Notes: generated by a model from the letters alone, not told the origin. A DNA stretch of 54,434 bases from Halorubrum tebenquichense DSM 14210 (GCF_000337415.1 NZ_AOJD01000024.1:20925-75358); one strand, 5' to 3'; counted from the first letter of the stretch, positions 1,175 through 17,427 are shown. Translations and numbers: made by a program.

Positions 1175-4060
1175 TCAATTCTGCTCCCCCTCGGCGGCTC
1201 GAACGAGTTCCCGAAGCTCTCCCATCCCGAGCGGCTCGATCGGTTCGCGGGTCCCGTCGGCCGTGTAAAACAGGCTCGCCGAGACCGTCTTATCGGGGAA
1301 CCACTCGTCGAGGACGTGGTAGTACACGCTGAGCTGTTTCCGGTACTCGGACTGCGCCCGCGGGGTCGCGTCCGTCTTGTAGTCGACGATTTCGACCAGA
1401 TCGGCCGTCTCGTGGACGAGATCGGCGATCCCCGAGACGGTCACCCGGCGGCCGTCGACGTCGATCGGGAGCGTCACCGGCTCCTCGACGTGTTTCTCGC
1501 CCGGCAGGTCGTCGAGGAGGGCGACGACCCGGCGTTCGTGGTCGTTCGACGGCGTCACGTCGTCGCCGAGCGCGTACGCCTCGGCGAAGTCGTGGACGCG
1601 CGAGCCGAAGTCCATCCCGCGCGTCTCCGGCTCCGCGTCGGGACCGGCCTCCGGTCGTTCGTCGAACTCCTCGAACACCGTCTCGTCCATCAGCGAGTGG
1701 GGAGTGTGACCGACCGGGCCCTCCGGGGTCGTCACCGCGAACGGCAGTTCCGCGTCGGCCGGCTCGCCGCGGTCGAACGGTTCGACGGCGGGGTCCGTCT
1801 CCTCGACGGGGACGGGAAGCTCCTCGAGGAACGCGTTCGGCTCCTCGCCGGCCGCGAGGACGACGTGGCTCTCCGCCCGCGACACCGCGACGTACAGCAG
1901 GCGGCGCTCCTCGTCGTACTCTCTGGGGAGACAGCGCCGGATGACGTCGTACCGCCAGTTGTCGTAGACGTGCGGGTGGGTCCCGACCTCGGAGTACCGC
2001 TTCCGCGGCCGGAGTCCGACCGGGTCCTGATACTCGACGACGCTCGACCCGCCGCTCCGCGGCGGGAACCGCCCCTCGTTCATGTTCGCCAGCACGACGA
2101 CGGGGTACTCCAGCCCCTTCGCCGCGTGGATCGTCTGGACGGTCACCGCGTCGTCGCCCGCGTTCGCGCTGAGATCGACCGTGGTTCCGGTCTCGATACC
2201 GCGCTCGACGAGCCGGATCAGCTCGCCGCGGGTGACGGTCGTCGCGTCGTACGTCGACTGGACCGTGTGGAGGAGGAGGTCCGCGGTGTCGCCGGTGAAG
2301 CCGTAGCGGTCGAGGACGCGGCGCGCGACCGCGCCGACCGACTCCAGTTCGCGGAGCGAATCGCGGAACGCGACCGCGTCGGACGGGTACGACGCCGTCC
2401 CTAACGCGTGGTCGATCTCGTCGAACGCGTAGCCGGCCCGTTCGAGGACGACCGCCCAGCCGCGGTCGGCGTCCGATTCGAGGATCCGGAGCCACGCGAG
2501 CAGCAGCTTCGCCGGGTCGGTCCGGAACAGCTCGATCCCGCCGTCGTACGCGACCGGGAAGTCGTACTCGTCGGCGACGTCGAGGAGCTCCCGGCCGTAG
2601 TCCCGCGTCCGCGTGAACACCGCGACGTCGCCGTACTCCGGCGGGCGCGGCTCGCCGTCCTCGCCCTCGACCGCGTAGTCGTCGTTGCCGACGACGTCCT
2701 GAATCTTCGAGAGGACGGCCTCGTGTTCGTCCTCGTGGCGGATCCCCTCGACCACGGTGTTGTCGAAGGCCGCGTTCGAGGAGAGCTCGACCACGTCGTC
2801 GAGGGGGGCGTCGACCGCCTCGCCGCTCGTGGCCGGCGTCTCGATCGCCCGCTCGGAGAGGTCGATGACCGACGCCGTCGACCGGTAGTTCTCCCGGAGC
2901 TCGATCCGGGTGGGGTCGGGCGCGTCGAACGGGACCCGGTCGGCGTCGTCGTTGAGGTCCGCGGCGAACCGCGCCAGCCGCTCCTCGAAGTCGAGGATGT
3001 TCCGCACGTCCGCGTACTGGAACGAGTAGATGCTCTGTTTCCAGTCGCCGACGGCACAGAAGTTCTCCGTCCCGGAGAAGAGGAGGGCCAGCTTGAACTG
3101 GATCTCGCTGGTATCTTGGAACTCGTCGACCATCACGTACTCGAACTGCGCCGCCTCCCGGACGCGCGGGTCCTCGCGAAGGAGCACGAACGCGAACAGC
3201 TGGAGGAAGCCGAAGGTGAGGTAGTTCCGACGCAGGGCGAACCGGATATACTCGACGTAGACGTCGTGGACGAACGACTTGAGCCCCTCGCGGTCCTCGT
3301 CGAACACGCGCCTCGCCACCTCGTCGTCGAGCCGTTTCGTCCCGCGGCCGCCCCGCAGCTCCGACTTCGAGGGCGCGTCGGGGAGGTACGCCTTGTTCCG
3401 CCCGAAGCGGCTCAGGTCCTCCCGCAGCGCCGACTGTTTCCGCCCGTCGTTGCGGGGTTGGTTCGCGGCGTCGAACCGCTCTCTGAACGCGTCGAAGTCG
3501 CCGTCGAGGTGCGACTCGCCGTCGCCGTACCAGCCGTCGGTCGTGGGGAACACGCCCTTCGCGGCGAGCTCCCGGATCAGGTCGAGCAGCTCGCTCGGCT
3601 CGGAGAGCACCCGGTAGAAGTCGGCGTGCTCCGGGTGGTCGTCGCGGAAGCCGCCGAAGAACTCGCGGAACCGCTCGGCCTCGACCAGCTCGTCGTCGAT
3701 CACCCGCGTCGACCCCGTGATCCGCTCGTCGAGTCCGAGGTGCGTCGGGGCGGCGTGGCCGTGCTCCCGGAGAACCTCGTGACAGTGCGAGTGGAACGTC
3801 CGGATCGGGGCGTCGGCGAGCTCCCGCAGCCCGTACGCGCTGCGGCCGACGATCCGCTCTTTCATCTCGGTCGCGGCGCTCCGCGTGAACGTCGCGAGCA
3901 GGACGTCGTCGGGTTCGATACCGGCGCGGTCGACGACGTTCCCGTAGCGGCGGGCGACGGCGAACGTCTTCCCGGTCCCCGGCCCGGCGTCGACGAGGTA
4001 CACGCCCTCCGTGTTCTCGATGAGCCGCCGCTGCGCGTCGTTCGGCGTCGGGTCGCTCAT
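1175..4060 (-). CDS. AddA/UvrD-like helicase-nuclease subunit
   Basis: This 961-residue protein is a superfamily 1 DNA helicase fused to a RecB-type nuclease. The helicase motifs appear in order: Walker A GPGTGKT (26-32), motif II VDEFQDTS, motif III GDWKQSIYSF, motif IV LRENYRS, motif V TIHAAKGLEYPVV and motif VI LLYVAVSRAESH. The C-terminal nuclease shows RVHDFAE, GIADLV, IVDYKTD and QLSVYY, the full set of RecB-family catalytic positions. This is the architecture of AddA in AddAB enzymes, which process double-strand breaks for recombination. The start overlaps the stop of the upstream partner gene by ATGA, indicating coupled translation. A much longer reading frame runs on to 5491, but it only crosses the partner gene out of frame. 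The function is inferred from the family; an exact archaeal AddA orthology is not proven. Confidence 0.88.
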   Translation of the reverse strand: MSDPTPNDAQRRLIENTEGVYLVDAGPGTGKTFAVARRYGNVVDRAGIEPDDVLLATFTRSAATEMKERIVGRSAYGLRELADAPIRTFHSHCHEVLREHGHAAPTHLGLDERITGSTRVIDDELVEAERFREFFGGFRDDHPEHADFYRVLSEPSELLDLIRELAAKGVFPTTDGWYGDGESHLDGDFDAFRERFDAANQPRNDGRKQSALREDLSRFGRNKAYLPDAPSKSELRGGRGTKRLDDEVARRVFDEDREGLKSFVHDVYVEYIRFALRRNYLTFGFLQLFAFVLLREDPRVREAAQFEYVMVDEFQDTSEIQFKLALLFSGTENFCAVGDWKQSIYSFQYADVRNILDFEERLARFAADLNDDADRVPFDAPDPTRIELRENYRSTASVIDLSERAIETPATSGEAVDAPLDDVVELSSNAAFDNTVVEGIRHEDEHEAVLSKIQDVVGNDDYAVEGEDGEPRPPEYGDVAVFTRTRDYGRELLDVADEYDFPVAYDGGIELFRTDPAKLLLAWLRILESDADRGWAVVLERAGYAFDEIDHALGTASYPSDAVAFRDSLRELESVGAVARRVLDRYGFTGDTADLLLHTVQSTYDATTVTRGELIRLVERGIETGTTVDLSANAGDDAVTVQTIHAAKGLEYPVVVLANMNEGRFPPRSGGSSVVEYQDPVGLRPRKRYSEVGTHPHVYDNWRYDVIRRCLPREYDEERRLLYVAVSRAESHVVLAAGEEPNAFLEELPVPVEETDPAVEPFDRGEPADAELPFAVTTPEGPVGHTPHSLMDETVFEEFDERPEAGPDAEPETRGMDFGSRVHDFAEAYALGDDVTPSNDHERRVVALLDDLPGEKHVEEPVTLPIDVDGRRVTVSGIADLVHETADLVEIVDYKTDATPRAQSEYRKQLSVYYHVLDEWFPDKTVSASLFYTADGTREPIEPLGMGELRELVRAAEGEQN

Positions 4061-6639
4061 CGGTCCCCCTCCAAGAGCAGGTCGCGGTTGTCCACGCGCC
4101 GGTAGTTCGGCTCGCCGCCGAGCCCGTCGACCGGGAAGCGCTCTTCGCCGGCCCGTCGCCGGTTCAACTCCGTCAAGCGCTCGCCGACGAACGACTCGAA
4201 CGCGTCGAGGTCGCCGCGGAAGAACGCGCGCTTGCGGACGCCGTTGAGCGCCCGGATCGCCTGGTCCGCCCCCTTCTCGGCGTCGACGTCGCCGGACGTG
4301 CCGGCGTCGACGGCGGCGGTGAACCGCTCGGCGAACGCGGAGTCGCGAAGCTCGCTTTTGTCCGTCGTCTCGGGGAACGTCAGGTCCGCGACGGCGTCGG
4401 CGTAGGCCGCGTAGCCGAGGTCGTCGAACGTCTCCCGGCAGTCGGTGTAGCCGTCGAGCAGTTCCTCGTAGGCGTCGGGGGAGCCGACGTACTCGTCGAA
4501 CGCGACCGGGTGGTACGAGACCGTCGTGAGCGCGTCGTCGAGGTCGGCGTCGCCGGCGACCACGTCGTCCATCGGTTCGAGGAAGTGGAAGAACGTGAAC
4601 TCCAGCGGCTCGTCGGGCCGGAGTCGCCGGTAGTGGGTCAGGTACAGCGCCGCCTGGAAGTTCGGGGCGTCGGCCGGCGGGTCGATCGCCGCGCCTTTGA
4701 CGACCTGCGAGGCTCGCTTCTTCGACCCGCTCTTGTAGTCGAGCAGGTGCGTCGGCGCTCGCACGAGGTCGATCTTCCCCTTGACGCCGAGCGCGTCGTC
4801 CTCGAACCAGCGCTCGGTGAGGGGGGAGTCGACCGGGCGGTCGAAGTGGTCCGCGAAGAAGTTGCCGCCCCACCCCGACGCGGCCGTGAGAAAGTCGTCC
4901 GACTCCGGCGCGTTCTCGTCGAGGTACTCCGAGAGTAGCTCCAGTCCGATCCGGTACGTCCGCCGGCGGAGGGGCTCGTCCGCGGCCGAGAAGAACGCCT
5001 CGGTCTCGCCGAGCATGGCGTCGACGAGCTCGTCGCGGTCGGCCGCCCCGACAACCTCGGGGTGGTTCACGTAGAACTCCGCGAAGTCGTGGAAGAGGTT
5101 CCCCTCGACGAACCGCTCCTGATCGGGCGAATCGAGGAGCCGCCCGAAGCAGTAGTCGCGCGGGCTGTTGACGTAGCCGTTGAGGGCGGACTGGCTGACC
5201 GTCTCGACCGTCTCGGCGTCGACCCCGAGCGGCCGGCGGTCGAAGCCGTCCCCGGTCCGTCGGGGTCGCCGCCGGTGTTCGACCGAGTCGAGGTCGCTGA
5301 ACCGCTCGAACTCCGCGTCGAGCAGGTCGCCGAAGTACAGACATGGCGTGACCGGCTCGCCGCCCGCGGCGTCCCGGACCAGGTAGTACCCCCGGTCGCC
5401 GCTCTGGAGCAGCCGCTGGAAGTCGCCGACGTAGCGCTCGAACTGCGTCTCGGTGTCCACCCACGGGCGCTGCGGGGCGGAGTGTGTCCACTCCTCGCCC
5501 ATCCCGAGGTGGAAGACCACGGGCCGGTCCACGTAGGCGGAGGACTTCGCGTCGGCGAGGAGGACGCCCTCGTTCTCCCGGTCGACGGGGACCTCGTAGG
5601 TCTGGAGGTAGTAGGCGAGGCGGTCGACCGCGGCCTCGGTCACGGGGTCGTCCGCGAGACCGAGCTTCCGCAGCTCCTCGTCGAACCGCGCCAGTTCGAC
5701 GCCGGCCCGGTCAGCGTACGCGTCGAGCGCCGCCGCGAACGTCCGGTCCTCGACGGTGTCGCGAAACGCCCGAATCCACTCCACGTCCGGACCGTCGACG
5801 GTCGCGAGTCGGCGGTCGCGGTCGCGCACCGGAGCCTCCGCTCCCAACTGGGCCAGCAGGGGAGCGACGTCGCCGACGGTCGCGTCCGGGCCCCGGAAGC
5901 CGAGCCGGAGCAACTGGACGAACGCCCTGTGGTGCGGGTCGTCCGCGAATCCCGGTCCGCCGTAGAAGGGGACGCCGGCCGCTTCGAGGGCGGACTCGAC
6001 GAGCGAGGAGTACTGCCCGCCGCCGTCGAGGACGACCGCGACGCGGTCGGCGTTGCCCGCCGAGACCGCGTCGAGGAGCGCCGCGACGATGTCGGTCGCC
6101 GACTCGAAGACGTGGAACGGCGGGCGGTCGAACGCGTCGCCGGTGAAGAGGTCGACGCGGTCGAACGACTCCGGGAGGACGCTACGCTCTAAGGCGGTCA
6201 GCCGGTCGTGGCCGACGACGGCGACCGACCGGTCGTCGTCGATCGCGTACTCCGTGAGCCGCTTCGACGTGGTCCGGCGGCTCCGCATCGCCTCGACGAC
6301 CTCGCGGGTCGCGTCGTCGACGTAGGCGTCGTACTCGAAGATCGCGTCGAGGCGGCCCCGGTGTTCCCAACACTGGAGGACGTTCCCGACGGCGTACGCG
6401 ATCGCCGTCCAGTCGCGGTCCGTCTCCGAGGCGAGTTCGAGGAACGCGCGGCGGTCCTCCGCCTGTTCCCGGCGACCGGCCGCGAGGCGGCGCGGCGTGG
6501 TCGCGAACGTCCCGAAGTGCGGGCGGTCGAGGCGACGGTTGATCGCGCTCGCGAGCGGGGCGTCGGGAGCGACGACGAGGTCGTACTCCGCGAGTTCCGC
6601 GTGGAGTGCGTCGGCCGACTTCGCTTCGCGGATAGGCAC
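4057..6639 (-). CDS. AddB-like PD-(D/E)XK nuclease subunit
   Basis: This 860-residue protein is the likely partner of the helicase-nuclease that follows it. It has no Walker A at the N-terminus; the equivalent position reads VVAPDAPLASAINRR. That agrees with AddB-type subunits that keep a helicase-like scaffold without activity. The C-terminal nuclease is intact in motif: NLFHDFAEFY, GKIDLV, LLDYKSG and FQAALYL. Few cysteines flank the nuclease, so I cannot show the iron-sulfur cluster known in Bacillus AddB. The start is GTG 6639, with a TATA-like TATCTTTTTGTG about 27 bases upstream, so it is probably leaderless. The two genes share a single operon with an ATGA overlap. Together they would resect and cut duplex DNA ends. 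Confidence 0.8.
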   Translation of the reverse strand: MPIREAKSADALHAELAEYDLVVAPDAPLASAINRRLDRPHFGTFATTPRRLAAGRREQAEDRRAFLELASETDRDWTAIAYAVGNVLQCWEHRGRLDAIFEYDAYVDDATREVVEAMRSRRTTSKRLTEYAIDDDRSVAVVGHDRLTALERSVLPESFDRVDLFTGDAFDRPPFHVFESATDIVAALLDAVSAGNADRVAVVLDGGGQYSSLVESALEAAGVPFYGGPGFADDPHHRAFVQLLRLGFRGPDATVGDVAPLLAQLGAEAPVRDRDRRLATVDGPDVEWIRAFRDTVEDRTFAAALDAYADRAGVELARFDEELRKLGLADDPVTEAAVDRLAYYLQTYEVPVDRENEGVLLADAKSSAYVDRPVVFHLGMGEEWTHSAPQRPWVDTETQFERYVGDFQRLLQSGDRGYYLVRDAAGGEPVTPCLYFGDLLDAEFERFSDLDSVEHRRRPRRTGDGFDRRPLGVDAETVETVSQSALNGYVNSPRDYCFGRLLDSPDQERFVEGNLFHDFAEFYVNHPEVVGAADRDELVDAMLGETEAFFSAADEPLRRRTYRIGLELLSEYLDENAPESDDFLTAASGWGGNFFADHFDRPVDSPLTERWFEDDALGVKGKIDLVRAPTHLLDYKSGSKKRASQVVKGAAIDPPADAPNFQAALYLTHYRRLRPDEPLEFTFFHFLEPMDDVVAGDADLDDALTTVSYHPVAFDEYVGSPDAYEELLDGYTDCRETFDDLGYAAYADAVADLTFPETTDKSELRDSAFAERFTAAVDAGTSGDVDAEKGADQAIRALNGVRKRAFFRGDLDAFESFVGERLTELNRRRAGEERFPVDGLGGEPNYRRVDNRDLLLEGDR

Positions 6640-6753: not shown

Positions 6754-7944
6754 TCACCAGTCGTACTCGTCGCGGGGGTCGACCGCGTCGCGCTCGCGGT
6801 CGAAGACGTGCTCGCCGTCGACGAAGACGTGTCGCGTCCGGCTGTCGTTCTCGTAGAAGACCCCGTCCCAGACCGCCACGTCGGCGTCCGTGCCGGCCTC
6901 CAGCGTGCCGACGCGGTCGTCGATCCCGAGGATCTCGGCGGGGTACCGCGTGACCGCCTCCAGCGCCTCCTCGGCGGGGAACCCCTCGCGGACCGCGAGC
7001 CCGACGCAGACGTCGAGGTGCTGTTGGGGGAGGACCGGCGCGTCCGTCTGGATCGCGACCTTCACCCCGGCCTCGCGGAGGATCGCGGGCGTCTCGAAGG
7101 TGATGTTGCGGAGCTCGTACTTCGCGCCCGAGTACAGCGAGGGGCCGACGATGGCCGGCACGTCCCGCTCCGCGAACTCGTCGGCGATCAGGTGGCCCTC
7201 GGTCGCGTGCTCGATCGAGAGCGACTCGATCCCGAACTCCTCGGCGATCCGGAAGACCGTCATGATGTCGTCGGTGCGGTGCGCGTGGACGCGGAGCGGG
7301 AGGCCCTCCGTGAGCACCCGCGCGAGGTTCTCCATGCCGAGGTCGCGCTCGAACGGCTCGCCCTCGTTGCGGGCGTGCTCGCGCCGGTCGACGTAGTCTT
7401 CGGCCTCCATCAGCGCCTCCCGGAGCGTGGCCGCGACGCCGGGGCGCGTCGAGGGCTGCCGGCCCTGCTCCTCGCCGTGGAAGCGCTTCGGGTTCTCGCC
7501 CATCGCCGCCTTCATCCCGTCCTCGCGGATCAGCATCTCGTCGGCGGTCAGCCCGTGGGTCTTCATCGAGCAGATGATCCCGCCGATGACGTTGCCGGAC
7601 CCCATCCGCGCCGAGACCGCGGTGACGCCGTTCTGGAACGCGTGTTTCAGCTCCTCGTCGCGGGGGTGGAAGCCGTCGAGCGCGTTGACGTGCGGGGTGA
7701 CCGCCGACGTGCCCTCGTTGACGTCGCCGTCCTCGGGTTCGCCCCACTCGGCCATGCCGGCGTGGCTGTGGGCGTCGACCAGCCCCGGCGTGACGTGGTG
7801 GCCCGAGACGTCGATCACGGTGGCTTCCTCCGGCGGGTCCCCGTCCCCGACGGAGGCGATCTCGCCGTCGTCGATGACGACGGTCGCGTCGATCGTTCCC
7901 CGCTCCGTTGCCGTGTGGACGGTCCCGCCGACGAGCGCGTACAT
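6754..7944 (-). CDS. metal-dependent amidohydrolase
   Basis: This 396-residue protein belongs to the amidohydrolase superfamily, in the imidazolonepropionase-like group. It shows VTPGLVDAHSHAG (metal ligand HxH), HAHRTDD and SIEHATEGH (further His ligands), and IQTDAPVLPQ (catalytic Asp). The N- and C-terminal strands form the usual small beta-sandwich, ending in DADVAVWDG and VFVDGEHV. The start ATG 7944 lies about 27 bases after the TATA-like CCGTTTAGTACC, which fits leaderless transcription. It stands alone between the nuclease operon and the modification island, so context does not reveal a substrate. Family members hydrolyse cyclic amides, hydantoins or dipeptides; choosing among these is not possible here. 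Confidence 0.85.
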   Translation of the reverse strand: MYALVGGTVHTATERGTIDATVVIDDGEIASVGDGDPPEEATVIDVSGHHVTPGLVDAHSHAGMAEWGEPEDGDVNEGTSAVTPHVNALDGFHPRDEELKHAFQNGVTAVSARMGSGNVIGGIICSMKTHGLTADEMLIREDGMKAAMGENPKRFHGEEQGRQPSTRPGVAATLREALMEAEDYVDRREHARNEGEPFERDLGMENLARVLTEGLPLRVHAHRTDDIMTVFRIAEEFGIESLSIEHATEGHLIADEFAERDVPAIVGPSLYSGAKYELRNITFETPAILREAGVKVAIQTDAPVLPQQHLDVCVGLAVREGFPAEEALEAVTRYPAEILGIDDRVGTLEAGTDADVAVWDGVFYENDSRTRHVFVDGEHVFDRERDAVDPRDEYDW

Positions 7945-8048
7945 GAAACGGGATTCAGCGGGGCGGTACTAAACGGTTCAGGCCGCGGATCGTCCCGTCG
8001 GAATCGATCCCCGATCCGAGACCATCGCGCTCGCCTCAGCGCGGACGA

Positions 8049-8279
8049 CTAACTCCGTTCGGCTCTCAGGATTAGTTCCGCCTTCTCCGTCAGGCTGTAA
8101 ACCGTCCTTCGACCGTCTTCTTCGCCCTCGATGTAGTCCGCTGCTTCGAGTTCGGACAGGTGCTGGTAGATCGTACTTCCCTGTACGTTGAGTTCCTTCG
8201 CCAGAACGTAGCCGTGCCTCGGCTCGTCTTCCAACAGAGAGAGGATGCGACGCTTCGAGTCCGTCAGCGTGAGTCCCAT
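8049..8279 (-). CDS. PadR-like winged-helix regulator
   Basis: This 76-residue protein is almost entirely one winged helix-turn-helix domain. The parts ILSLLEDEPRHGYVLAKEL, GSTIYQHLSELEAADYI and GRRTVYSLTEKA match the PadR/ArsR-type fold: helix 2, recognition helix and wing. It has no visible ligand domain. It is divergent from the methyltransferase-like gene at 8362, and the 82-base gap carries a TATA-like TTTATATTT for this gene plus short inverted repeats. The CTATGTA element beside the divergent gene recurs in front of the nuclease gene. I therefore infer that it controls the modification island, in the manner of the small controller proteins of bacterial restriction systems, although the fold differs. 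That role is inference. Confidence 0.75.
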   Translation of the reverse strand: MGLTLTDSKRRILSLLEDEPRHGYVLAKELNVQGSTIYQHLSELEAADYIEGEEDGRRTVYSLTEKAELILRAERS

Positions 8280-8310
8280 CAGCCGGCCGTTGGCGTAGCC
8301 CGGTGAAAAA

Positions 8311-8361
8311 CAATGTAAATATAAACGCCTATGCGTAGGTAAATTTCTATGTAATATCCGG
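8311..8361. promoter_or_regulatory. divergent promoter/operator of the modification island
   Basis: The gap between the winged-helix gene and the first island gene is AT-rich. Positions 8328-8339 are an inverted repeat CCTA-TGCG-TAGG. CTATGTAA follows at 8347-8354, and AATGTAAATATAAA at 8312-8325 serves as a TATA region for the leftward gene. The CTATGTA element appears again at 9906-9912 within a perfect dyad. Confidence 0.5.
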
Positions 8362-9075
8362 ATGGTGGAGAACTCAAGTAGCCAGCCCGCCCAAGATACT
8401 GGTAATCAAATGTATCTAGTCGATCTGCGGGAACAAATTCGGAGTTCGGACTCCCTTGACGCGGCTCTCCGATCTACAGACGGCGTCTGGGAGGACATCT
8501 ACGAGGCGATGGAGCCGACGGAGACGCTCTGGGTTATCGCCCCCAACGACTACCGTGACGGTCGGATGTGGCCGTGTGCGTTGGCATTTGCGGATTACAT
8601 TCGAGACGAAGCCGCCTTTGATCTCAAGAACACGATCAGCGTACATTCACGCGAAGGCACCACCGACGAGCCCGACCTCCGGCCGAGTTACTGCGACATC
8701 CTCTTTCTCGTGCGCGACAAGCGAGACTATCAGTTCCATAAGGACCGGATACGGGTCTCACACGTCTACGAGGGGAACGAGTGGGGTGATGACCGAGAGA
8801 CCGGCCAAAGCGCTTATCACGACACGGAAGTCAGACGGTACAACCCGGAGGGCAAAGACCCCGGTAACGTTTGGCTGCGCGAAGACCGCACTCGGACGAG
8901 CGATCAGTCCGTGGACCAAACCGACACCCTGTCTCTTTCCGAAGCCGTCCGACGATGCGTGTTAGCGGGTTCGGGCGACGAGGAGACGGTCAACGCGCTG
9001 TGGGCCGACGACTTCGCGGACGCGGTCACCGCCGAGAACCGAACGATGAACGATATCGAAGCGGGGACGTTGTGA
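8362..9075 (+). CDS. methyltransferase-like protein lacking catalytic motifs
   Basis: This 237-residue protein aligns by eye with the next gene, a beta-class DNA methyltransferase. ETLWVIAPNDYRDGRMWP matches GTMWIVVDTVMERGDLKLLP, the segment DILFLVRDKRDYQFHKDRI matches YVVYLSKSKDHKFDDEDR, and NVWLRED matches NLWRHPV. However, it has no SPPY/DPPY catalytic loop, and the C-terminal SAM-binding F-x-G-x-G is replaced by an acidic tail. It therefore looks like a paralogue that has lost catalysis but kept the core and target-recognition region. Its stop overlaps the next start (TGATG), so the two are translated together and probably form a complex. I infer a DNA-recognition or scaffold role. Base composition is visibly AT-richer than the flanks, which suggests transfer. 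Confidence 0.6.
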   Translation: MVENSSSQPAQDTGNQMYLVDLREQIRSSDSLDAALRSTDGVWEDIYEAMEPTETLWVIAPNDYRDGRMWPCALAFADYIRDEAAFDLKNTISVHSREGTTDEPDLRPSYCDILFLVRDKRDYQFHKDRIRVSHVYEGNEWGDDRETGQSAYHDTEVRRYNPEGKDPGNVWLREDRTRTSDQSVDQTDTLSLSEAVRRCVLAGSGDEETVNALWADDFADAVTAENRTMNDIEAGTL

Positions 9076-9857
9076 TGCCGGAACTCGACGACTTCTCCGA
9101 CCTCGACGTTTACTGGAGTTCCAGCGAGGAGATGGCCGAAGTCGAGGACGGGTCCGTACAGTCCGTCATCACGTCGCCGCCCTACTGGGATCTGAAAGAC
9201 TACGGGCACGAAGAACAGATCGGTACCGCCGACGAGTCCTACGAGCGCTACCACGACCGTCTAGACCGAGTCTGGAGCGAGTGCTACGATGTCCTCCGCG
9301 AGGACGGAACCATGTGGATCGTCGTGGACACGGTTATGGAGAGAGGCGATCTCAAGCTGTTACCGTATCACATTGCGGAGCGTGCGGAAGATGTCGGGTT
9401 CTTGCTACAAGACATGGTGGTCTGGCACAAGCCGACCGCCATCGCGGGGATGACCGACAGAAACGTCGTCAACAAAAAGGAGTACGTGGTATATCTCTCG
9501 AAGAGCAAAGACCACAAATTCGACGACGAGGATCGAGAGCACGGCCTCGAAGACCCCGCGGTGTCCGAGGGCGAGCGACTCGGCAACCTCTGGAGACACC
9601 CCGTCAAGCGCGGATCCGTCGGTACCAACGTGCTTCATAAAGCCCCCTATCCCGCGTCCCTCACCGACAGGATCGTGAAGGTCTCGACCGACGAGGGCGA
9701 CACCGTTCTCGACCCCTTCCTCGGTAGTGGCACGACCGCGAAGTCCGCCCTTCGGCTCCAGAGAGAGTGTATCGGCTACGAACTCAACGAGGACTTTGAT
9801 GACGTCATTGCTGACCGCCTCTCGGGTCTTACGCAGCAGTCGCTCACCGACTTCTGA
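9075..9857 (+). CDS. beta-class DNA methyltransferase (N4-C or N6-A)
   Basis: This 260-residue site-specific DNA methyltransferase has catalytic motif IV, VITSPPYWDLKDYG, near residues 31-44. The SAM-binding motif DPFLGSGTT lies near residue 215. This order (catalytic first, SAM site last) defines the beta class. SPPY favours N4-cytosine methylation, but N6-adenine cannot be excluded. The tail RECIGYELNEDFDDV is the usual end of motif I/II in this class. I chose ATG 9075 because it overlaps the previous stop by one base; GTG 9072 is an in-frame alternative one codon upstream. It is the only gene of the island with complete methyltransferase motifs. Its target sequence is unknown. It protects the host if the downstream nuclease is a true restriction enzyme. 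Confidence 0.9.
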   Translation: MPELDDFSDLDVYWSSSEEMAEVEDGSVQSVITSPPYWDLKDYGHEEQIGTADESYERYHDRLDRVWSECYDVLREDGTMWIVVDTVMERGDLKLLPYHIAERAEDVGFLLQDMVVWHKPTAIAGMTDRNVVNKKEYVVYLSKSKDHKFDDEDREHGLEDPAVSEGERLGNLWRHPVKRGSVGTNVLHKAPYPASLTDRIVKVSTDEGDTVLDPFLGSGTTAKSALRLQRECIGYELNEDFDDVIADRLSGLTQQSLTDF

Positions 9858-9890
9858 GTCCGCGACCGCTTGGATTCACCGTCGCGTAGA

Positions 9891-9912
9891 TACATAGAGA
9901 ACCACCTATGTA
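9891..9912. promoter_or_regulatory. perfect dyad TACATAG-N8-CTATGTA, candidate operator
   Basis: Two perfect 7-base arms (9891-9897 and 9906-9912) are separated by 8 bases between the methyltransferase stop and the nuclease start. The right arm repeats the CTATGTA found at 8347-8353. It lies just upstream of a TATA-like TTTATACTATATCC at 9927-9940. A regulator bound here could block or recruit the basal factors for the nuclease gene alone. Confidence 0.6.
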
Positions 9913-9926
9913 ACGGCGATTACGGA

Positions 9927-9940
9927 TTTATACTATATCC
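9927..9940 (+). promoter_or_regulatory. TATA-like box of the nuclease gene
   Basis: TTTATACTATATCC lies about 27 bases before the GTG start at 9964, which fits a leaderless mRNA. The nuclease gene therefore has its own promoter, separate from the methyltransferase pair. Confidence 0.55.
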
Positions 9941-9963
9941 GATGATAGGGAGCGAATACCGAT

Positions 9964-10836
9964 GTGTCTGACAGCGACCCTTGGACGGACGTTCTCGGAT
10001 ATACCGATCTGGGAACCGAACGTCGCGAAGTCATCAAAGAAGAAATAAAAGAACTCGTTCAGAACCTTCCACAGGACCATCCGGGGATCTTCGAAGCCCA
10101 CGACGTCTCCGCCCGGGACTACTCCCGGAACCTCGACACGGCGATCCACTCGTTGGACGGCACAATCAAGGCCAAGAGAGGCAAAGACAACGAGGACGTC
10201 GTTCGGGAGGTCTTCCTCGGACCCGGTCAGGAAGCCGGGCTACTCGAGTTCACTGACCAGCGGGGGAGCGAACGGATCGACTTCAAGGGCACGCTCGCCA
10301 CGGGAGACACGTTCGCGATGGACGTGAAGGGTGGCGAAGGACAGTCGATCGGACACCTGCTCGTTCCGTCCAACACCGACGTCCTCTCTCTGTGGAGCGA
10401 GCGCAACTCCCGGAACACGAAGTCCCCCGCGTCTCGACTGAACGAAGTCATCAACCGAGCGGTTCGCTGGAGCCTGAACCAGAGCGAAGACCTCTCCGTG
10501 ATGGTCGTGCGCGACGAGCCCGCGGGGGCGCGGACGGACGAAGGCGAAGTCATTCCCGACGTTGTCGTGTTCCCCGAGGAGTTCCCGACGCCCGAGAACC
10601 CGAATCCCTCGATGCCCGACATCGATGACCTCGAATACGCCAGAATCGTCTTCGAGATACTCACCGGAAACGGAGACCTCAGCGCCGAGGAGACGCGGAA
10701 ACACATCTGGTGGCACGAACTCGAGTACCGGCACGACGAGGGGAAGATCGACAAACGGATCTACAACGACTACGACGACAGCATCACTCTCACTACTCAG
10801 TCCATCGAGTTCGAACGCATCTCGGACGTTTCGTGA
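9964..10836 (+). CDS. putative PD-(D/E)XK restriction-type endonuclease
   Basis: This 290-residue protein follows the DNA methyltransferase and is not a family I can name. It contains a candidate PD-(D/E)XK core: RIDFKG (Asp 106), then FAMDVKGGEGQ with Asp 120, Lys 122 and a following Gly-rich turn. That is the usual D-x(10-20)-(D/E)xK arrangement of restriction nucleases. The N-terminus is helical and charged, and the C-terminal third, rich in aromatic and acidic residues, could recognise DNA. The start is GTG 9964; an ATG at 9962 is out of frame. The gene has its own TATA box and an upstream dyad, unlike the two coupled genes before it. The restriction role is inferred from motif plus position. 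Confidence 0.6.
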   Translation: MSDSDPWTDVLGYTDLGTERREVIKEEIKELVQNLPQDHPGIFEAHDVSARDYSRNLDTAIHSLDGTIKAKRGKDNEDVVREVFLGPGQEAGLLEFTDQRGSERIDFKGTLATGDTFAMDVKGGEGQSIGHLLVPSNTDVLSLWSERNSRNTKSPASRLNEVINRAVRWSLNQSEDLSVMVVRDEPAGARTDEGEVIPDVVVFPEEFPTPENPNPSMPDIDDLEYARIVFEILTGNGDLSAEETRKHIWWHELEYRHDEGKIDKRIYNDYDDSITLTTQSIEFERISDVS

Positions 10837-11011
10837 CGAACGCCAACTGCGTCGAAGTGACGAGCGACGCCGCGTATCGACCCGACCGCTTCGGACGGAT
10901 CGGCGCTGGTCCCGACGGCGGCTCGGGCGAGGTACGTGGATAACTTATTTATCCGACGCCCGTGACGCCAGTAACAAGTCCGTTTGTAGTAGGACAACAA
11001 AAATTGTACAC
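10837..11011 (+). promoter_or_regulatory. promoter region of the first cob gene
   Basis: This gap carries an inverted repeat GGATAA-CTTAT-TTATCC at 10938-10954, which doubles as a TATA-like region. TGTAGTA follows at 10985-10991, and ATTGTACA at 11003-11010 directly abuts the start codon. TGTAGTA followed by ACAA also occurs at 17413 and 37348. The first 90 bases look like unremarkable spacer. Confidence 0.4.
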
Positions 11012-11761
11012 ATGCCACGGGAAACACTACTCCTCGTCGGGCGGAACGAGGTGCGATCGGTCGCGGAGCGGCACGCCGATCGGTTACGGAGCGCCGGTAT
11101 CGCCGACGCGGTCACTACCGCGACGTACGCGGTGGAGCCGGAATCGGAACTCAGAGGGGCGCTATCGGACGTCCGCGGAGACCGCGTCTACGCGGTCCCG
11201 ATGTGCTTCGCGCACACCCACGAGACGCTGAAAGACGTTCCGAGGGCGTTGAACCGGCTCTCCGGCGAGGTGCGGTACTGCGACCCGATCGGGGAGCGCC
11301 GGGCCGTGACCGAGGCGATCCGGAACCGGGCCGAGGCCGCGAGCGACGCCGACGCGCTCGTGCTCGTCGCCCTCGGGAACAGCCGCGACGACCACGCGCG
11401 AACGGCCGCGGCGTCCCACGCGGCCCGCCTCCGGGCCGAGTTCGACGAGGTCCGCACCGCGTACCTCCTCCAGAGCCCGGCCGTCGAGTGCGCGCGGTAC
11501 ACGCTCGACGCCGACCGCGCGGTCGCGTGTCCGCTGTTCGTCGGCGACTGCGAGGCGACCCGAGACCGGATCCCGGAACAACTCGAGTTACATCGCGGCG
11601 GGATCGACTACGCCGACCCGTTCGGCGCGGACGACGTCGTCACCGACGCGATCGCCGCCGCGGTCGAGCGCGCCCGCGAGACTCCGCCGGCCGCCGCGCC
11701 GGGCCCCGACCTCGTCGCCGACGCGGACCCCGTGGCCACGGACGGCAGCGGGCGGGACTGA
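11012..11761 (+). CDS. divergent CbiX-like chelatase family protein
   Basis: This 249-residue protein has the two-half layout of CbiX/SirB cobalt chelatases, which insert Co2+ into sirohydrochlorin. VPMCFAHTHETLKDVP matches the second metal-binding motif, including a His. The first motif, normally LLVGHGSR, reads LLLVGRNEVR, so the key His is missing. In the second half the same position reads VALGNSRDD. It may therefore be a non-catalytic or altered chelatase, or act on another substrate. An intact CbiX occurs at 28202, so this copy need not be the enzyme. The gene is monocistronic with its own promoter and is convergent with cbiE. It is clearly part of the cobalamin cluster by position. Confidence 0.65.
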   Translation: MPRETLLLVGRNEVRSVAERHADRLRSAGIADAVTTATYAVEPESELRGALSDVRGDRVYAVPMCFAHTHETLKDVPRALNRLSGEVRYCDPIGERRAVTEAIRNRAEAASDADALVLVALGNSRDDHARTAAASHAARLRAEFDEVRTAYLLQSPAVECARYTLDADRAVACPLFVGDCEATRDRIPEQLELHRGGIDYADPFGADDVVTDAIAAAVERARETPPAAAPGPDLVADADPVATDGSGRD

Positions 11762-11880
11762 CTCGCTTCGTCTCGTCTTCTCTCCCGAACCCAATCGAAG
11801 CCGGGCGCGAGTCGGCCCGATTCCGCCGGTCGTTTTCCGCCAGTCAGGGTCAACCGATCCGGTTCCATGGGTCCGGTCCC

Positions 11881-12663
11881 CTACCGTCGAACGACCAGCA
11901 CGGACAGGTCGGAGAACGGCGAGTCGCTCGGCTCGTCGCCGCCCGCGTGTCCGGCGAGGTCGCGGAGCGTCGTCCGGGTGATGCGTTCGTCGTCGTGGGT
12001 GAGTCGCTCGCAGACGAGCGCCTCCGCGTCCGGGTCGCCGCCGTGGTCGAGCAGGTCGGCGGCGACGTCGCCGGGCATCCGGTCGAACGGGCGGGGCAAC
12101 ACGAGCAGGTGACGGCTCCCGACGTCGCGGCGGAGCCGGTCGATCTCCTCCGTGAGGTCGCCGCTCTTGTGGAGCGTGACGAACGTCGAATCTTCCACGG
12201 GCGTGCGCGCTCGACTGGCCGCGACCTGGAGCGAAGAGATCCCCGGGACGACGCGCACCTCGGCCGACCCGCCGGTCGCGTCGTCGACCGCGCGCTCGAC
12301 CTTCCCGACGAACTGGTAGCCGGAGTGGTTCGGATCCCCCATCAGGACCGCCGCGCCCCGCTCCCCGCGGGCCACGCGGTCGGCGAACGCGTCGAGCGCG
12401 TCCGCCTCGTCGCGGTACCCGCAGGTCAGGCAGTCGGCGTCGGTGCGATCGCGGACGAACTCGACGACCGTCTCGAACCCGACGACGACGTCCGCCTCTC
12501 GGATCGCACGCTCCACTCTCGGCACGAGGTACTCCGGGTTTCCGGGTCCGATACCGACGGCGTGGACGGTCGCCGTCGACTCGCCCTCCGAGTCGGGCTC
12601 CGGACTGTCCGCGGCGTACGCCGCCGGGTCCGGCCCCTCGTCGAGGTCGTACCCGTCCGTCAC
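11881..12663 (-). CDS. cbiE: cobalt-precorrin-7 (C5)-methyltransferase CbiE
   Basis: CbiE adds the C5 methyl group in the corrin ring pathway using S-adenosylmethionine. The 260-residue protein has the tetrapyrrole methylase core: VGIGPGNPEYLVP near residue 36, MGDPNHSG, and VVPGISSLQVAA. The ending with CERLTHDDERI and FSDLSVLVV is typical of CbiE rather than its paralogues. An acidic 30-residue N-terminal tail precedes the fold. The start is GTG 12661-12663, overlapping the cbiC stop by GTGA, so the two are coupled. It is the last gene of the leftward cobN-cbiC-cbiE operon. CbiT, which completes the C5/C15 step, is encoded separately at 21877. Confidence 0.88.
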   Translation of the reverse strand: MTDGYDLDEGPDPAAYAADSPEPDSEGESTATVHAVGIGPGNPEYLVPRVERAIREADVVVGFETVVEFVRDRTDADCLTCGYRDEADALDAFADRVARGERGAAVLMGDPNHSGYQFVGKVERAVDDATGGSAEVRVVPGISSLQVAASRARTPVEDSTFVTLHKSGDLTEEIDRLRRDVGSRHLLVLPRPFDRMPGDVAADLLDHGGDPDAEALVCERLTHDDERITRTTLRDLAGHAGGDEPSDSPFSDLSVLVVRR

Positions 12664-13436
12664 GGGCCGTCACCCCGGAGCGCTTCGAGCGTCGTCTCGC
12701 CGTTCCGCACGTCGCTGGCGGCGTGGACGAGTTCGTTGGTGAGGCCGGCGGCCACGCCCGACCCGCCGCGTCGGCCGACGTTCGTGACCGCGGCGACGCC
12801 GTGCGCCTCGGCGACCTCGCGTATCCGCTCGCGGCTCTCGGCGGCCTTCACGAACCCGACCGGCGTCGCGACGACGACCGCCGGCCGCGTCCCCTGCTCG
12901 ATACAGTCGGCGAGCGCGAGCGCGGCGGTCGGCGCGTTCCCGACGACGGCTATCGCGCCCTCGTAGACGCCGCGCTCGTCGAGTTCGAGCACGCTCGCCG
13001 CGGTGCGGGTCATCCCGGTCTCCGCGGCGAGTTCCGTGCCGTTCCCGATCGCCTTCCTGACCTCGCAGTCGTGGCCCCGCCCCGTGACCCCCGACTTGAC
13101 CATCGTGATGTCCGTCACGATCGGTCGCTCGTCGAGGACGGCCTCCGCCCCGGCCGCGACCGGGTCGTTCGCGAACCGCAGCAGGTGTGCGAACTCGGGG
13201 TCGCCGGTGGCGTGGACGGCCTTCGCGCGCAGGCGGTCGGTCGGCGTCTCCTGCGGGACGAGCTCGTGGACGCGGTCCATGCTCGTCTCGGCGATGGCCA
13301 TCGCGTCCTCGGTCGTCGCGCCGAGGTCGGCGTACGCCGCGGTCTCCCCGGAGTCGGCCGTCTCACCGTCGTCGGTCGCCTCGCCCCCGTCGGTCGCCTC
13401 GCCCCCGTCGGTCGCCTCGCTCCCGTCAGTCGTCAT
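12660..13436 (-). CDS. cbiC: cobalt-precorrin-8 methylmutase CbiC
   Basis: CbiC moves the methyl group from C11 to C12 to give cobyrinate. The 258-residue protein contains the family signature DITMVKSGVTGRG and the His-bearing HELVPQETPTDR and AVHATGDPEFAHL segments. NVGRRGGSGVAAGLTNELVHA closes the fold. The first 30 residues are a Gly-Asp-Glu-Thr tail made by an 18-base DNA repeat (three units, 13374-13427), probably slippage-generated and not part of the enzyme. It overlaps cobN by 11 bases and cbiE by 4 bases, so the operon is tightly coupled. Confidence 0.9.
   Translation of the reverse strand: MTTDGSEATDGGEATDGGEATDDGETADSGETAAYADLGATTEDAMAIAETSMDRVHELVPQETPTDRLRAKAVHATGDPEFAHLLRFANDPVAAGAEAVLDERPIVTDITMVKSGVTGRGHDCEVRKAIGNGTELAAETGMTRTAASVLELDERGVYEGAIAVVGNAPTAALALADCIEQGTRPAVVVATPVGFVKAAESRERIREVAEAHGVAAVTNVGRRGGSGVAAGLTNELVHAASDVRNGETTLEALRGDGP
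13374..13427. repeat. 18-bp tandem repeat, three units, in cbiC 5' end
   Basis: The unit ggtcgcctcgcccccgtc occurs at 13374 and 13392 exactly, and at 13410 with one change. It encodes a repeated Asp-Gly-Gly-Glu-Ala-Thr tail. It is in frame and does not break cbiC. Confidence 0.85.
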
Positions 13437-16400
13437 CGGCGGTCACCTCCGTCGGGTCGCGCGAGGCGCGCTCCTCGATGTCGCCGTCGACGCTGAGGTT
13501 GCGGTCCCGCAGCTCGCGGACCGTCTCCCCGTCAGCGTCCCAGAGCCCGCGCTCGACGGCTTCGAGGAGGGTGTCCGTGATCGACTCCAGCGCCCACGGG
13601 TTGACGTCGCGCATCCAGTCGGCCCGGTCGTCGTCGAGCGCGTACTTCTCGGCCACGTCGCGCCAGAGCCGGTCGGAGACGACGCCGGTCGTTGCGTCCC
13701 ACCCGAGCGCCACGTCGACCGTCTTCGAGAGGTCGCCGGCCCCCTTGTAGCCGTGCTCCTCCATCGAGTCGAGCCAGTCGGGGTTGAGGACCCGCGCCCG
13801 CATCGCCTTCCGGACCTTCTCCTCGTTCGTGTAGACGTCGACGTTGTCGGGATCGGAGGAGTCGCCCACGTACGACGCCGGCTCCTCGCCGGCGACCTCG
13901 GTGACGGCGGTGATGAACCCGCCGTGGAACGCGTACCAGTCGGAGGAGTCGAACTCGTCCTGTTCCATCGTGTCCTCGATCTTCACCGTCGCCTCGACGT
14001 TGCCGAGCCGACGCTCGAACGCGTCGTGCGCCGCCGAGGCGGTGCCGCGGGAGCCGAGGGCGTAGCCGCCCCACTGGACGTACACGTCCGCCAGGTCCGC
14101 GGCGTCGTCCCAGTTCCCCTCGTCGACGGCCTTGTTCGTCCCCGCGCCGTAGCCGCCGGGGCGCGTCGTGAACACGCGGTGTCTCGCGGCCGCCTCGGGG
14201 TCGTCGTGTCCCTCGGCCGCCAGTTCCTCCGTCTCCTCCTCGACGTGCTTTTTGACGTAGTTCAGCTCGTGCGGCTCGTCGCGGTCGACCACGGCGTCGA
14301 CCGCGTCGTGGATCACGCTCGCGGCCTGCGGGAACGCGTCCCTGAACAGCCCGGACACGCGGGTCGTGGCGTCGACGCGGGGCCGGCCGAGCTCGTCGAG
14401 CGGGATCGGCTCCACGTCGTCGATCCGCCCCGCGTCGGTCCAGACGGGCTCGACGCCCATCGTGGCGAGGACCTGCGCGATCGTCTCGCCGCGGGTCCGG
14501 ACGGTCGGCGTCCCCCACGCGACGACGCCGATCTCCTCGGGGTACTCGCCCTGCTCGTCGCGGTGGCGGGCGAGCGTGTCGGCGGCGATCTCGCTGCCGA
14601 CCTCCCACGCGGCCTTGGCGGGCACCTTCCGCGGGTCGAGGGTGTAGAAGTTCCGGCCGGTCGGGAGCAGGTCGACGCCGCCGCGGGTGGGTGCGCCGGA
14701 GCCGCCCGGCGGGACGTACTCGCCGGCCAGCGCGTCGGCCGTGCGCGGGATCTCCGCCTCGGCACCCCGGACCCGCGGCGCGGCCTCCTCGGCGATGAAC
14801 CGCAGCGCGTCCCGGAGGTCGTCGTGGGCACCGCCGCGGACGCGGGCGTCGCCGAGCGGATCGACGCCGACGATCAGCAGGTTGATCGTCGTCTCGTCGC
14901 CCGCTCCGGCGGCCGATTCCGACTCGGGCACGTCGAAGCCGTGGGCGGCCAGCGCCCGGACGAGCTCTTTGCTCGTCTCGTACACCTCGTCCGCGGCCTC
15001 CCCGTAGGTCATGCCCAGCGTCTCGTCGTACTCGCCCGGCGCGTCGAGCATCCGGTCGTAGTCGACGCCGAGCACGCCGGCGACCGACTCGCGGAGGCTC
15101 GGGCCGCCCGGATTCTCCAGCCGGGTGAGCGCGACCAAGTACTCCACGAGCCGGTCGTCGACCGGGGGCTCGCCCATCGTGTGGAGCCCCAGCCGGATCT
15201 GGGTGTTCTTCACGTCGGTCAGGTACGCGTGGATCCGCTCGACGAGCTCCGCGACGGGGACCTCGTCGCCCTCGACGCCCCCCTCCGCGAGCGTCGATCC
15301 GGCCGCGTCCGGCCCGCGGACGTCGGCTCGCTCGTCGACCTCGCCCGCGACCCCGAGCTCCACGGCGAGGTCGAGGTCGTCGACCGTCTCGCGGATGAGA
15401 TCGCCGAGCCGGGCCCCCTCGTCGGTGCGGACCTCGGTGCCGCCGGCCTCGCGGTAGCGGCGGGCGAGGTCCTCCAGCTCCGCCAGCTCGTCGTAGCTGC
15501 CGGCGCGCCGCATCACCGGCGTCAGGTAGTCCACGACGGCGGCGTACGAGCGGCGCTTCGCCTGCGTCCCCTCGCCCGGGTTGTTGACGATGTACGGGTA
15601 GACGTTCGGGAGGTCGTCGATCAGGCCGTCCGGGGCCGACCCGGAGCCCAGCCCGACCGTCTTGCCCGGCAGCCACTCCAGCGAGCCGTGCGTGCCGAGG
15701 TGGACGACGGCGTCGGCGTCGAACTCGTTGCGGAGCCACCCGTAGAAGGCGACGTAGTCGTGCGGCGGCCACAGGTCGGAGTCGTGGTACACCTTCTCCG
15801 GATCCATCCCGAAGCCGCGCGGGGGTTGGACCGTGACGAGGACGTTCCCGAACTCGACGCCGGGGATCGCGAACGGCCGGTCGGGCGGGTCGCCCCACTC
15901 TTCGAGGACGCCGTCGCGGAACCGGTCGCTCCGCGCGTCGAACCACTCGGCGTACCGCGCCGGCGACACGGTGTCGACGCTGCGGTCGCGCACGTCCCCC
16001 GGCGCGACCCACCGGTCGTCGAGCGTGAGTTGGCTGGTCAAGGCGTCGATGAGCTCTTCCCCGTCGGCGACGGGGGCGGAGTCCATCTCGTCGCCGTCGA
16101 CGCCCGGATCGGGGCCCGTCGCGTCGCCGCCCCGCGAACCGAGGTCGTACCCGCGACCGTCGAGTTCCGCCAACAGGTTGACGGTCGACTCGGGCGAGTC
16201 GAGGCCGAACGCGGTCCCGATCCCGTCGTCGCTCGGCGGGTAGTTGTGTAACACGACCGCGACGTTCTTCTCGTCGTTCGGCGTGTGCCTGAGCGTCGCC
16301 CAGTTGACCGCGAGCCGCGCGGCGTGGTCGACGCGGTCCTCGATCGGGAAGTGCTGCTTGGGCGCGGAGCCGATGCCCGCGGCGTCGTCGGTCCGCTCTT

Positions 16401-17394
16401 TCCCCGAGATCGGGTGCGTGATCACGTTGCCGTCGAACTCGGGGAGCGCGACGGAGAGCGCGAGTTCGAACCCCATCACGCCGGTGTCGCTCGACTCGTA
16501 CCGGGAGCGCGAGCGCATCGTCGTCACCGTCTGTATCACGGGGACGCCGAGGTCGTCGAGGAACACGCCCTCCGCGTTCGCCCCCTCGTCCGCGGCGTCG
16601 CGCCCGCGCTCGCTCATCGACAGCGAGAACATGAACGACGAGAGGACGGCGTCGACGACCGGGTCGCCGCGGTCGTCGGTGAAGTAGTGCTCGGCCGTCC
16701 ACTTCGCGTCCTCTTGCCCCGCCTCGTCGCTGACTGGGTTACAGAACACGGGGAGCGCGTTCGCCCCGAGCGCCTCCAGCCGGCGGACCTGCGCGTCGAC
16801 GTACCGGACGTTCTCGTGGGTCCAATGCGACTCGTAGAACCAGACGCCGACCGTCGGCGCGTCCGGGTCGAACGTCGCGGTCAGTTCCTCGTGGTCCGCG
16901 CCGGGGTGATCGGGGTGGTAGACGCCCTCGGTCGGGAGCTCGATCGGGTCGTCGATCTCGCCCGCGGCCCCGTCTGCGTCGCCCGCGACATCGCCGTCGC
17001 CGTACTCCCGAGCGAGGAACCGGGTCCCGTTCGCGATGTTGACCGCCCCGCCGTGGTCGAGGTACTCGCAGACCGTCGCCCGGTCGGTCGGCGCGACGGT
17101 GGTGTCCTCCGGCGCGAAGGCGTCGCCCGTCGCCTTCACGACGAGCGGCACGCCGGCGTCTCGGAGCTCGTCGACCGCGAACTCGTACGCCGGCATGCTG
17201 TCCTTTCCGCCGTGGAGCCAGAGGACGACCGCGGCCGCGTTCCGGATCTCGTCGACGAACTCCGCCACGTCGCGCTGCTCGTCGAGGTCGCCGTCGGACC
17301 GAACGACGAGGTCGATCCCCGTCAGCCGTTCCGCGGCCGTCTGGACCGCCCCCAGCTCGTTCTCCGTCGCCGTGTAGAGGCCGATTTTTGTCAC
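13426..17394 (-). CDS. cobN: cobaltochelatase large subunit CobN
   Basis: CobN is the porphyrin-binding H-type subunit of the ATP-dependent metal chelatase family (relatives ChlH/BchH). At 1322 residues its length is normal. Recognisable parts are the N-terminal MTKIGLYTATENELG, VVLWLHGGKDSMPAYEF, and VHLGTHGSLEWLPGKTVGL, the conserved HGxLEWLPGK loop. Further conserved pieces are NVYPYIVNNPGEGTQAKRR and TRPGGYGAGTNKAVDEG. In aerobic bacteria it inserts cobalt into hydrogenobyrinate diamide with CobS and CobT. Here those partners are absent, and a ChlI/ChlD-type ATPase is encoded divergently. The start is GTG 17394, only 33 bases from the divergent ATG, so the two promoters must overlap. It is the first gene of cobN-cbiC-cbiE. 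Confidence 0.92.
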   Translation of the reverse strand: MTKIGLYTATENELGAVQTAAERLTGIDLVVRSDGDLDEQRDVAEFVDEIRNAAAVVLWLHGGKDSMPAYEFAVDELRDAGVPLVVKATGDAFAPEDTTVAPTDRATVCEYLDHGGAVNIANGTRFLAREYGDGDVAGDADGAAGEIDDPIELPTEGVYHPDHPGADHEELTATFDPDAPTVGVWFYESHWTHENVRYVDAQVRRLEALGANALPVFCNPVSDEAGQEDAKWTAEHYFTDDRGDPVVDAVLSSFMFSLSMSERGRDAADEGANAEGVFLDDLGVPVIQTVTTMRSRSRYESSDTGVMGFELALSVALPEFDGNVITHPISGKERTDDAAGIGSAPKQHFPIEDRVDHAARLAVNWATLRHTPNDEKNVAVVLHNYPPSDDGIGTAFGLDSPESTVNLLAELDGRGYDLGSRGGDATGPDPGVDGDEMDSAPVADGEELIDALTSQLTLDDRWVAPGDVRDRSVDTVSPARYAEWFDARSDRFRDGVLEEWGDPPDRPFAIPGVEFGNVLVTVQPPRGFGMDPEKVYHDSDLWPPHDYVAFYGWLRNEFDADAVVHLGTHGSLEWLPGKTVGLGSGSAPDGLIDDLPNVYPYIVNNPGEGTQAKRRSYAAVVDYLTPVMRRAGSYDELAELEDLARRYREAGGTEVRTDEGARLGDLIRETVDDLDLAVELGVAGEVDERADVRGPDAAGSTLAEGGVEGDEVPVAELVERIHAYLTDVKNTQIRLGLHTMGEPPVDDRLVEYLVALTRLENPGGPSLRESVAGVLGVDYDRMLDAPGEYDETLGMTYGEAADEVYETSKELVRALAAHGFDVPESESAAGAGDETTINLLIVGVDPLGDARVRGGAHDDLRDALRFIAEEAAPRVRGAEAEIPRTADALAGEYVPPGGSGAPTRGGVDLLPTGRNFYTLDPRKVPAKAAWEVGSEIAADTLARHRDEQGEYPEEIGVVAWGTPTVRTRGETIAQVLATMGVEPVWTDAGRIDDVEPIPLDELGRPRVDATTRVSGLFRDAFPQAASVIHDAVDAVVDRDEPHELNYVKKHVEEETEELAAEGHDDPEAAARHRVFTTRPGGYGAGTNKAVDEGNWDDAADLADVYVQWGGYALGSRGTASAAHDAFERRLGNVEATVKIEDTMEQDEFDSSDWYAFHGGFITAVTEVAGEEPASYVGDSSDPDNVDVYTNEEKVRKAMRARVLNPDWLDSMEEHGYKGAGDLSKTVDVALGWDATTGVVSDRLWRDVAEKYALDDDRADWMRDVNPWALESITDTLLEAVERGLWDADGETVRELRDRNLSVDGDIEERASRDPTEVTADDD

Positions 17395-17427
17395 AAGCTA
17401 TTAAACCTCCTCTGTAGTAACACAAGT
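17395..17427. promoter_or_regulatory. 33-bp overlapping divergent promoter
   Basis: The starts of cobN (leftward) and the ChlI/ChlD gene (rightward) are separated by only 33 bases. TATTAAACC at 17399-17407 sits about 25 bases before the rightward ATG. TGTAGTA (17413-17419) and CACAAG (17421-17426) lie in the place expected for the leftward TATA box. CACAAG is also present at 17392-17397, across the cobN start. Both mRNAs are probably leaderless and mutually exclusive. Confidence 0.6.

Follow-up and report, generated by a model that had tools for sequence, protein, structure and literature searches.

A candidate haloarchaeal restriction-modification cassette with a catalytically dead and a live methyltransferase subunit

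What does a DNA methyltransferase homologue without catalytic motifs do beside an intact relative and upstream of a nuclease-like gene? The question is raised by a four-gene unit of Halorubrum tebenquichense DSM 14210, located in a 54,434-nucleotide stretch of DNA (NZ_AOJD01000024.1:20925-75358; hereafter the window). The answer developed below is drawn from comparison of the unit with its relatives in other Halobacteria, from predicted structures, and from the known systems in which one methyltransferase activity is shared by two chains.

The four-gene unit and its genomic setting

A divergent gene on the minus strand encodes a PadR-like winged-helix regulator (P0004, 76 amino acids; 8049–8279). 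It is followed on the plus strand by a catalytically dead beta-class methyltransferase subunit (P0001, 237 amino acids; 8362–9075), a live N6/N4 DNA methyltransferase (P0002, 260 amino acids; 9075–9857) and a PD-(D/E)XK-like nuclease with a GTG start (P0003, 290 amino acids; 9964–10836). A check of the sequence bore out the coordinates originally predicted for the two methyltransferase-like genes as well as their TGATG overlap at 9073–9077, where the P0001 stop and the P0002 start share one base.

The unit has a G+C content of 58%, against 71–72% on both flanks, which suggests transfer. Fourteen complete cassettes are found in diverse Halobacteria, with the same order throughout, so the arrangement is not a one-off. 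Their flanks are unrelated, except for a few partial matches and for the pair formed by the window and its sister genome; together with the constant gene order, this marks the cassette as a mobile unit of fixed order. The window's closest named relatives belong to Halobacteria, and one cassette is carried by a plasmid of Haloquadratum, a genus counted in the same family as the window.

No clean empty site was found among nine genus relatives that do not carry the cassette and whose left flanks match up to 7945–8003, mostly 7986–8003. To the right of the cassette, at 11000–17400, lie cobalamin-type genes (CbiX-like, CobN-like and others), and these are not adjacent to the left-flank amidohydrolase in the same nine relatives. 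Also beside the cassette, two minus-strand ORFs in overlapping frames (1175–6639) resemble a helicase-nuclease of the UvrD/AddA type and its AddB-like partner. Elsewhere, a decayed remnant (L033 in genome G362, 7906–8714) holds a broken dead gene and a nuclease tail, with the live methyltransferase undetected.

Two methyltransferase homologues, one dead and one live

The original prediction described the product of the gene at 8362 as a methyltransferase relative without the SPPY and SAM motifs, and named its assignment to an unrelated family as an outcome that would count against this. The profile search was run, and Pfam gives N6_N4_Mtase instead (PF01555; 28.3 bits against a cut-off of 26.7), a domain matched by 12 of the 13 dead-family members in the alignment at an E-value limit of 0.1. 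Direct BLASTP between P0001 and P0002 is weak (E=0.008), and comparison of the two family profiles with hhalign reaches E=2e-7 over 156 columns. The structure prediction that had been proposed as a check gave an AlphaFold model with a mean pLDDT of 69, in which the recognition region is poorly modelled (pLDDT 30–45). This model matches beta-class methyltransferases, namely M.RsrI (fold match E=1.8e-8) and M.MboIIA (Z 14.1, rmsd 3.4, 159 residues), with METTL14 as a weaker structural match. The Pfam assignment, the profile match to the partner and the fold match together exclude an unrelated family for this gene.

Motif IV ([DNS]PP[YFW]) occurs in 0 of 15 dead proteins and is absent from every reading frame of the dead genes; SAM motif I (D-x-F-x-G-x-G) is missing from the same 15, and [FY]xGxG[ST] appears in no frame. 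The loss first noted for the 8362 product is thus common to all of its relatives, and P0001 is a methyltransferase homologue rather than an active enzyme. A pseudogene or a sequencing error at 8362 is excluded, since 15 relatives lack the motifs, as do the other frames, and since a dN/dS of 0.08–0.18 places the dead gene under purifying selection. No viral relatives of the dead protein were found; a match to a Burkholderia phage methyltransferase was rejected as a dead relative because it is an intact SPPY enzyme.

The partner at 9075 is the live methyltransferase that it had been taken for. P0002 scores 156.9 bits against PF01555, and motifs IV and I are both present in 15 of 15 live proteins. 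In the window these are SPPY at 9174–9185 and the SAM site DPFLGSG at 9711–9731, both on the plus strand, and SPPY and D-P-F-x-G-S-G are invariant across the family. An SPPY motif suggests N4-methylcytosine, the candidate modified base of the live subunit.

Across 391 Halobacteria, the dead family is found at full length in 14 genomes, with one broken remnant besides, and the live family at at least 63% identity is found in the same 14. No close live relative lacking a dead partner was found in this set, and the enzymes that come next in similarity to the live one, at 39–41% identity, are solitary. A 15th pair, in a complete cassette, is present in a genus relative (G636). Within the sampled Halobacteria, the pair is obligate. 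At all 15 loci the two genes either abut or share up to 8 nt, and the subunit trees show the dead proteins as one clade and the live proteins as one clade. Pairwise distances of the cassette genes are also correlated, which was taken as a mark of joint transfer and not of contact.

One pair stands alone. At locus L032 (genome G185, 7556–10185), dead and live genes occur with neither nuclease nor regulator, directly behind a ParB-DUF488 gene and among plasmid- or provirus-like element genes; this pair branches first in both subunit trees, under a midpoint root used for drawing only. Its persistence there ties the dead subunit to the live methyltransferase and to methylation, not to the nuclease and cleavage. 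The Haloquadratum walsbyi PL100 cassette has a related stretch in its left flank, where a ParB gene is also found.

The two families are conserved in different places. The target-recognition region of the dead family (residues 122–172; 8725–8877, plus strand) is its best conserved part: pairwise identity averages 79% there and 26 of the 51 positions never vary, compared with 47% identity in the motif IV region and 45% in the C-terminal part. The live family keeps its motif IV region (87% identity) and core (80%), and its recognition region is among its least conserved parts (60%, 7 of 31 positions invariant). A solitary haloarchaeal CTAG-type family, used as a control, has no such drop (0.77 in the recognition region versus 0.75–0.82 elsewhere). 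The recognition interval spans 54 residues in the dead subunit and 31, or 23 fewer, in the live one; because the interval is as short as 33 residues in solitary CTAG-type enzymes, this length proves little alone and was dropped as a sole argument. The two genes had been described as aligning through both the core and the recognition area; they align poorly through the latter, which is where they differ most. An intact phage enzyme has a recognition region similar to that of the dead subunit, and the two share the pattern IRV...GK(D/N)PG(N/D)VW. Judged by conservation, the dead and live genes retain complementary halves of a single enzyme, a case of reciprocal decay. Since the dead relative has lost catalysis and kept the DNA-reading part, the two probably divide the work of one enzyme.

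The same pattern bears on a different role for the dead protein, in which both chains bind DNA, the dead one acts as an allosteric or dimer-completing scaffold that reads little sequence, and specificity comes from both. Beta-class enzymes frequently act as dimers (PMC9852454), so a dead copy could be kept merely to complete the dimer, but within the dead protein it is the recognition region, and not the rest of the core, that is best conserved, which makes a scaffold unlikely.

A nuclease-like gene and a candidate control circuit

The PD-(D/E)XK character originally proposed for P0003 is backed by invariant residues and predicted topology, without a profile match. Residues E77, D106, D120 and K122 (D120-x-K122) are invariant in 14 nuclease relatives, and the putative active site RID(106)...D(120)VK(122) maps to 10279–10329 on the plus strand. 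The predicted core runs alpha-beta-beta-beta-alpha-beta (helix 76–90; strands 94–98, 107–111 and 116–123; helix 155–173; strand 179–184). Searches of Pfam, NCBIfam and PADLOC, and of PDB sequences with the nuclease profile, returned no match; a single NCBIfam hit (E 0.09) and two from PHROGs (E above 0.2) are at chance level. Structural matches of the model are weak, the best reaching E 0.008 in Foldseek and a Z of 6, and unrelated folds appear among them. PD-(D/E)XK enzymes are frequent in this weak set, where BsmI is best (Z 6.0, rmsd 3.8, 129 residues) and AvaII, Hjc and RecU are among the matches listed. The single viral hit of the nuclease (L043) was excluded as a coincidental peptide match to a phage gene of structural appearance. 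Taken with the model, these sequence features make P0003 a probable new family of restriction endonucleases.

The nuclease family is found solely at loci of the dead/live pair, to which it is linked in 14 of 15 cases, 103–204 bp downstream. A live enzyme that recognises and methylates by itself, with the dead protein serving as the specificity subunit of the nuclease, would account for a nuclease found only with the dead protein and for the strong pairwise-distance correlation of the two (0.92). However, the L032 pair occurs without any nuclease, the dead and live genes overlap or abut while the nuclease gene keeps its distance, and the recognition region of the live enzyme is poorly conserved; this arrangement is a shade less probable still than the scaffold. 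Least credible is that the four genes form an epigenetic or plasmid-maintenance module in which the nuclease-like gene does something else: the nuclease family does match no known restriction enzyme, one cassette is plasmid-borne in Haloquadratum and one pair lies in an element resembling a plasmid or provirus, but the active-site residues are invariant, and restriction-modification systems typically show such scattered occurrence amid unrelated flanks.

The small divergent gene had been called PadR-like, and it scores 39.7 bits against Pfam PadR (cut-off 27), with other winged-helix families matching too. It is present at 14 of the 15 loci, divergent and, leaving aside L029 with its ambiguous dead start, 81–88 bp upstream of the dead gene, and P0004 is probably the controller of the cassette. 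Between regulator and dead gene, ahead of the methyltransferase pair, lies an operator-like palindrome, GCCTATGCGTAGGT in the window (8327–8340). Its consensus, ACCTATGCATAGGT, is found at this place in 14 of 14 cassettes, with a mean of 12.7 matches of 14 versus 7.7 in shuffled sequence. In a pattern search of the 3.3-Mb genome, the 12-base core of this palindrome was the sole site at up to one mismatch.

A degenerate copy of the palindrome precedes the nuclease gene, with a mean of 11.2 matches versus 8.0 shuffled over the 14 cassettes, and lies 59–60 bp before the start codon at 12 of 14 loci. In the window this second operator-like site, ACCTATGTAACGGC (9904–9917), is weak, and sites with three mismatches are at chance level there, so its case rests on its fixed position in relatives. 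The palindrome is a probable operator of the cassette's regulator, and the simplest reading of the sequence is that the cassette's own winged-helix protein binds it. A TATA-like stretch, TTTATACTATAT, is situated ∼30 bp before the GTG start (within 9900–9963), and the nuclease may thus have its own promoter.

A proposed division of labour and its relatives

We put at roughly 0.7 the probability that the unit is a restriction-modification cassette of a Type II-like kind whose methyltransferase is heterodimeric, the dead subunit reading the DNA and the live one methylating it. Linked methyltransferase and endonuclease genes, by which a Type II system is recognised, are found at 14 of 15 loci when P0003 is taken as the endonuclease. 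We infer a methyltransferase that would be an obligate heterodimer of two beta-class folds. The dead subunit would supply the target-recognition domain and read the site, and the live subunit, with its shrunken recognition region, would bind SAM and methylate. Unmodified DNA would be cut by the PD-(D/E)XK-like protein, either alone or docked on the pair, and the winged-helix protein would set the order of expression by binding the palindrome before the pair and before the nuclease. The original prediction that the dead subunit may set specificity is favoured by the strict co-inheritance and by the opposite halves kept, which are support and not proof. More tentatively, and with somewhat less than even confidence, the methyltransferase of a prokaryotic restriction system may have been duplicated and then permanently divided by reciprocal decay: one copy would have become a pseudo-methyltransferase that reads DNA, the other a methylating subunit almost without a recognition region. 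The reader would perhaps guide the new-family nuclease, and specificity could be changed by exchange of the dead subunit alone.

Several known systems resemble parts of this scheme. The split C5 methyltransferases M.AquI and M.EcoHK31I reportedly spread one activity over two genes in a restriction system; they are, however, one enzyme in two pieces, whereas the cassette has two full-fold homologues, one of them eroded. The layout also recalls Type II systems with controller (C) proteins, in which a methyltransferase, an endonuclease and a small DNA-binding regulator are joined by shared operators. C proteins are usually of the Xre-type helix-turn-helix kind, while the cassette has a PadR-like winged helix and an extra dead subunit. 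Searches of the open-access literature turned up no earlier restriction system with a dead/live heterodimeric methyltransferase, and archaeal restriction-system surveys made no mention of such a pair under the terms tried.

In the Type III Mod2 of EcoP15I, two beta-class chains, ModA and ModB, likewise share the work, one Mod copy making most base contacts and the other methylating (PMC4490356). The pattern seen in the cassette would be the expected trace of such a division of labour once fixed. EcoP15I nonetheless uses identical, competent chains and a helicase-nuclease Res, whereas the cassette has two permanently specialised genes; no Type III Res helicase was seen in it, its only nuclease-like gene coding for 290 amino acids and giving no helicase match. 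Closer in composition are METTL3-METTL14 and the ciliate MTA1-MTA9, which join a live methyltransferase to a homologue without the catalytic motif that aids substrate binding (PMC9852454). Those pairs are eukaryotic, belong to the MT-A70 family and have no cognate nuclease. The cassette pair is prokaryotic, and its dead chain carries a recognition region of its own; P0001 and P0002 both match PF01555, and neither matches the MT-A70 domain at E up to 1.

Pairs of a dead and a live methyltransferase are chiefly familiar from the eukaryotic METTL3-METTL14 and MTA1-MTA9. If the proposed reading is true, the haloarchaeal cassette would be a compact, mobile prokaryotic case that shows directly how a homodimer with one reading and one acting copy becomes a fixed heterodimer, and would offer a small genetic system for testing that change. 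It would also contribute a nuclease family that has no known match here and, for a restriction cassette, a control circuit based on a winged-helix protein.
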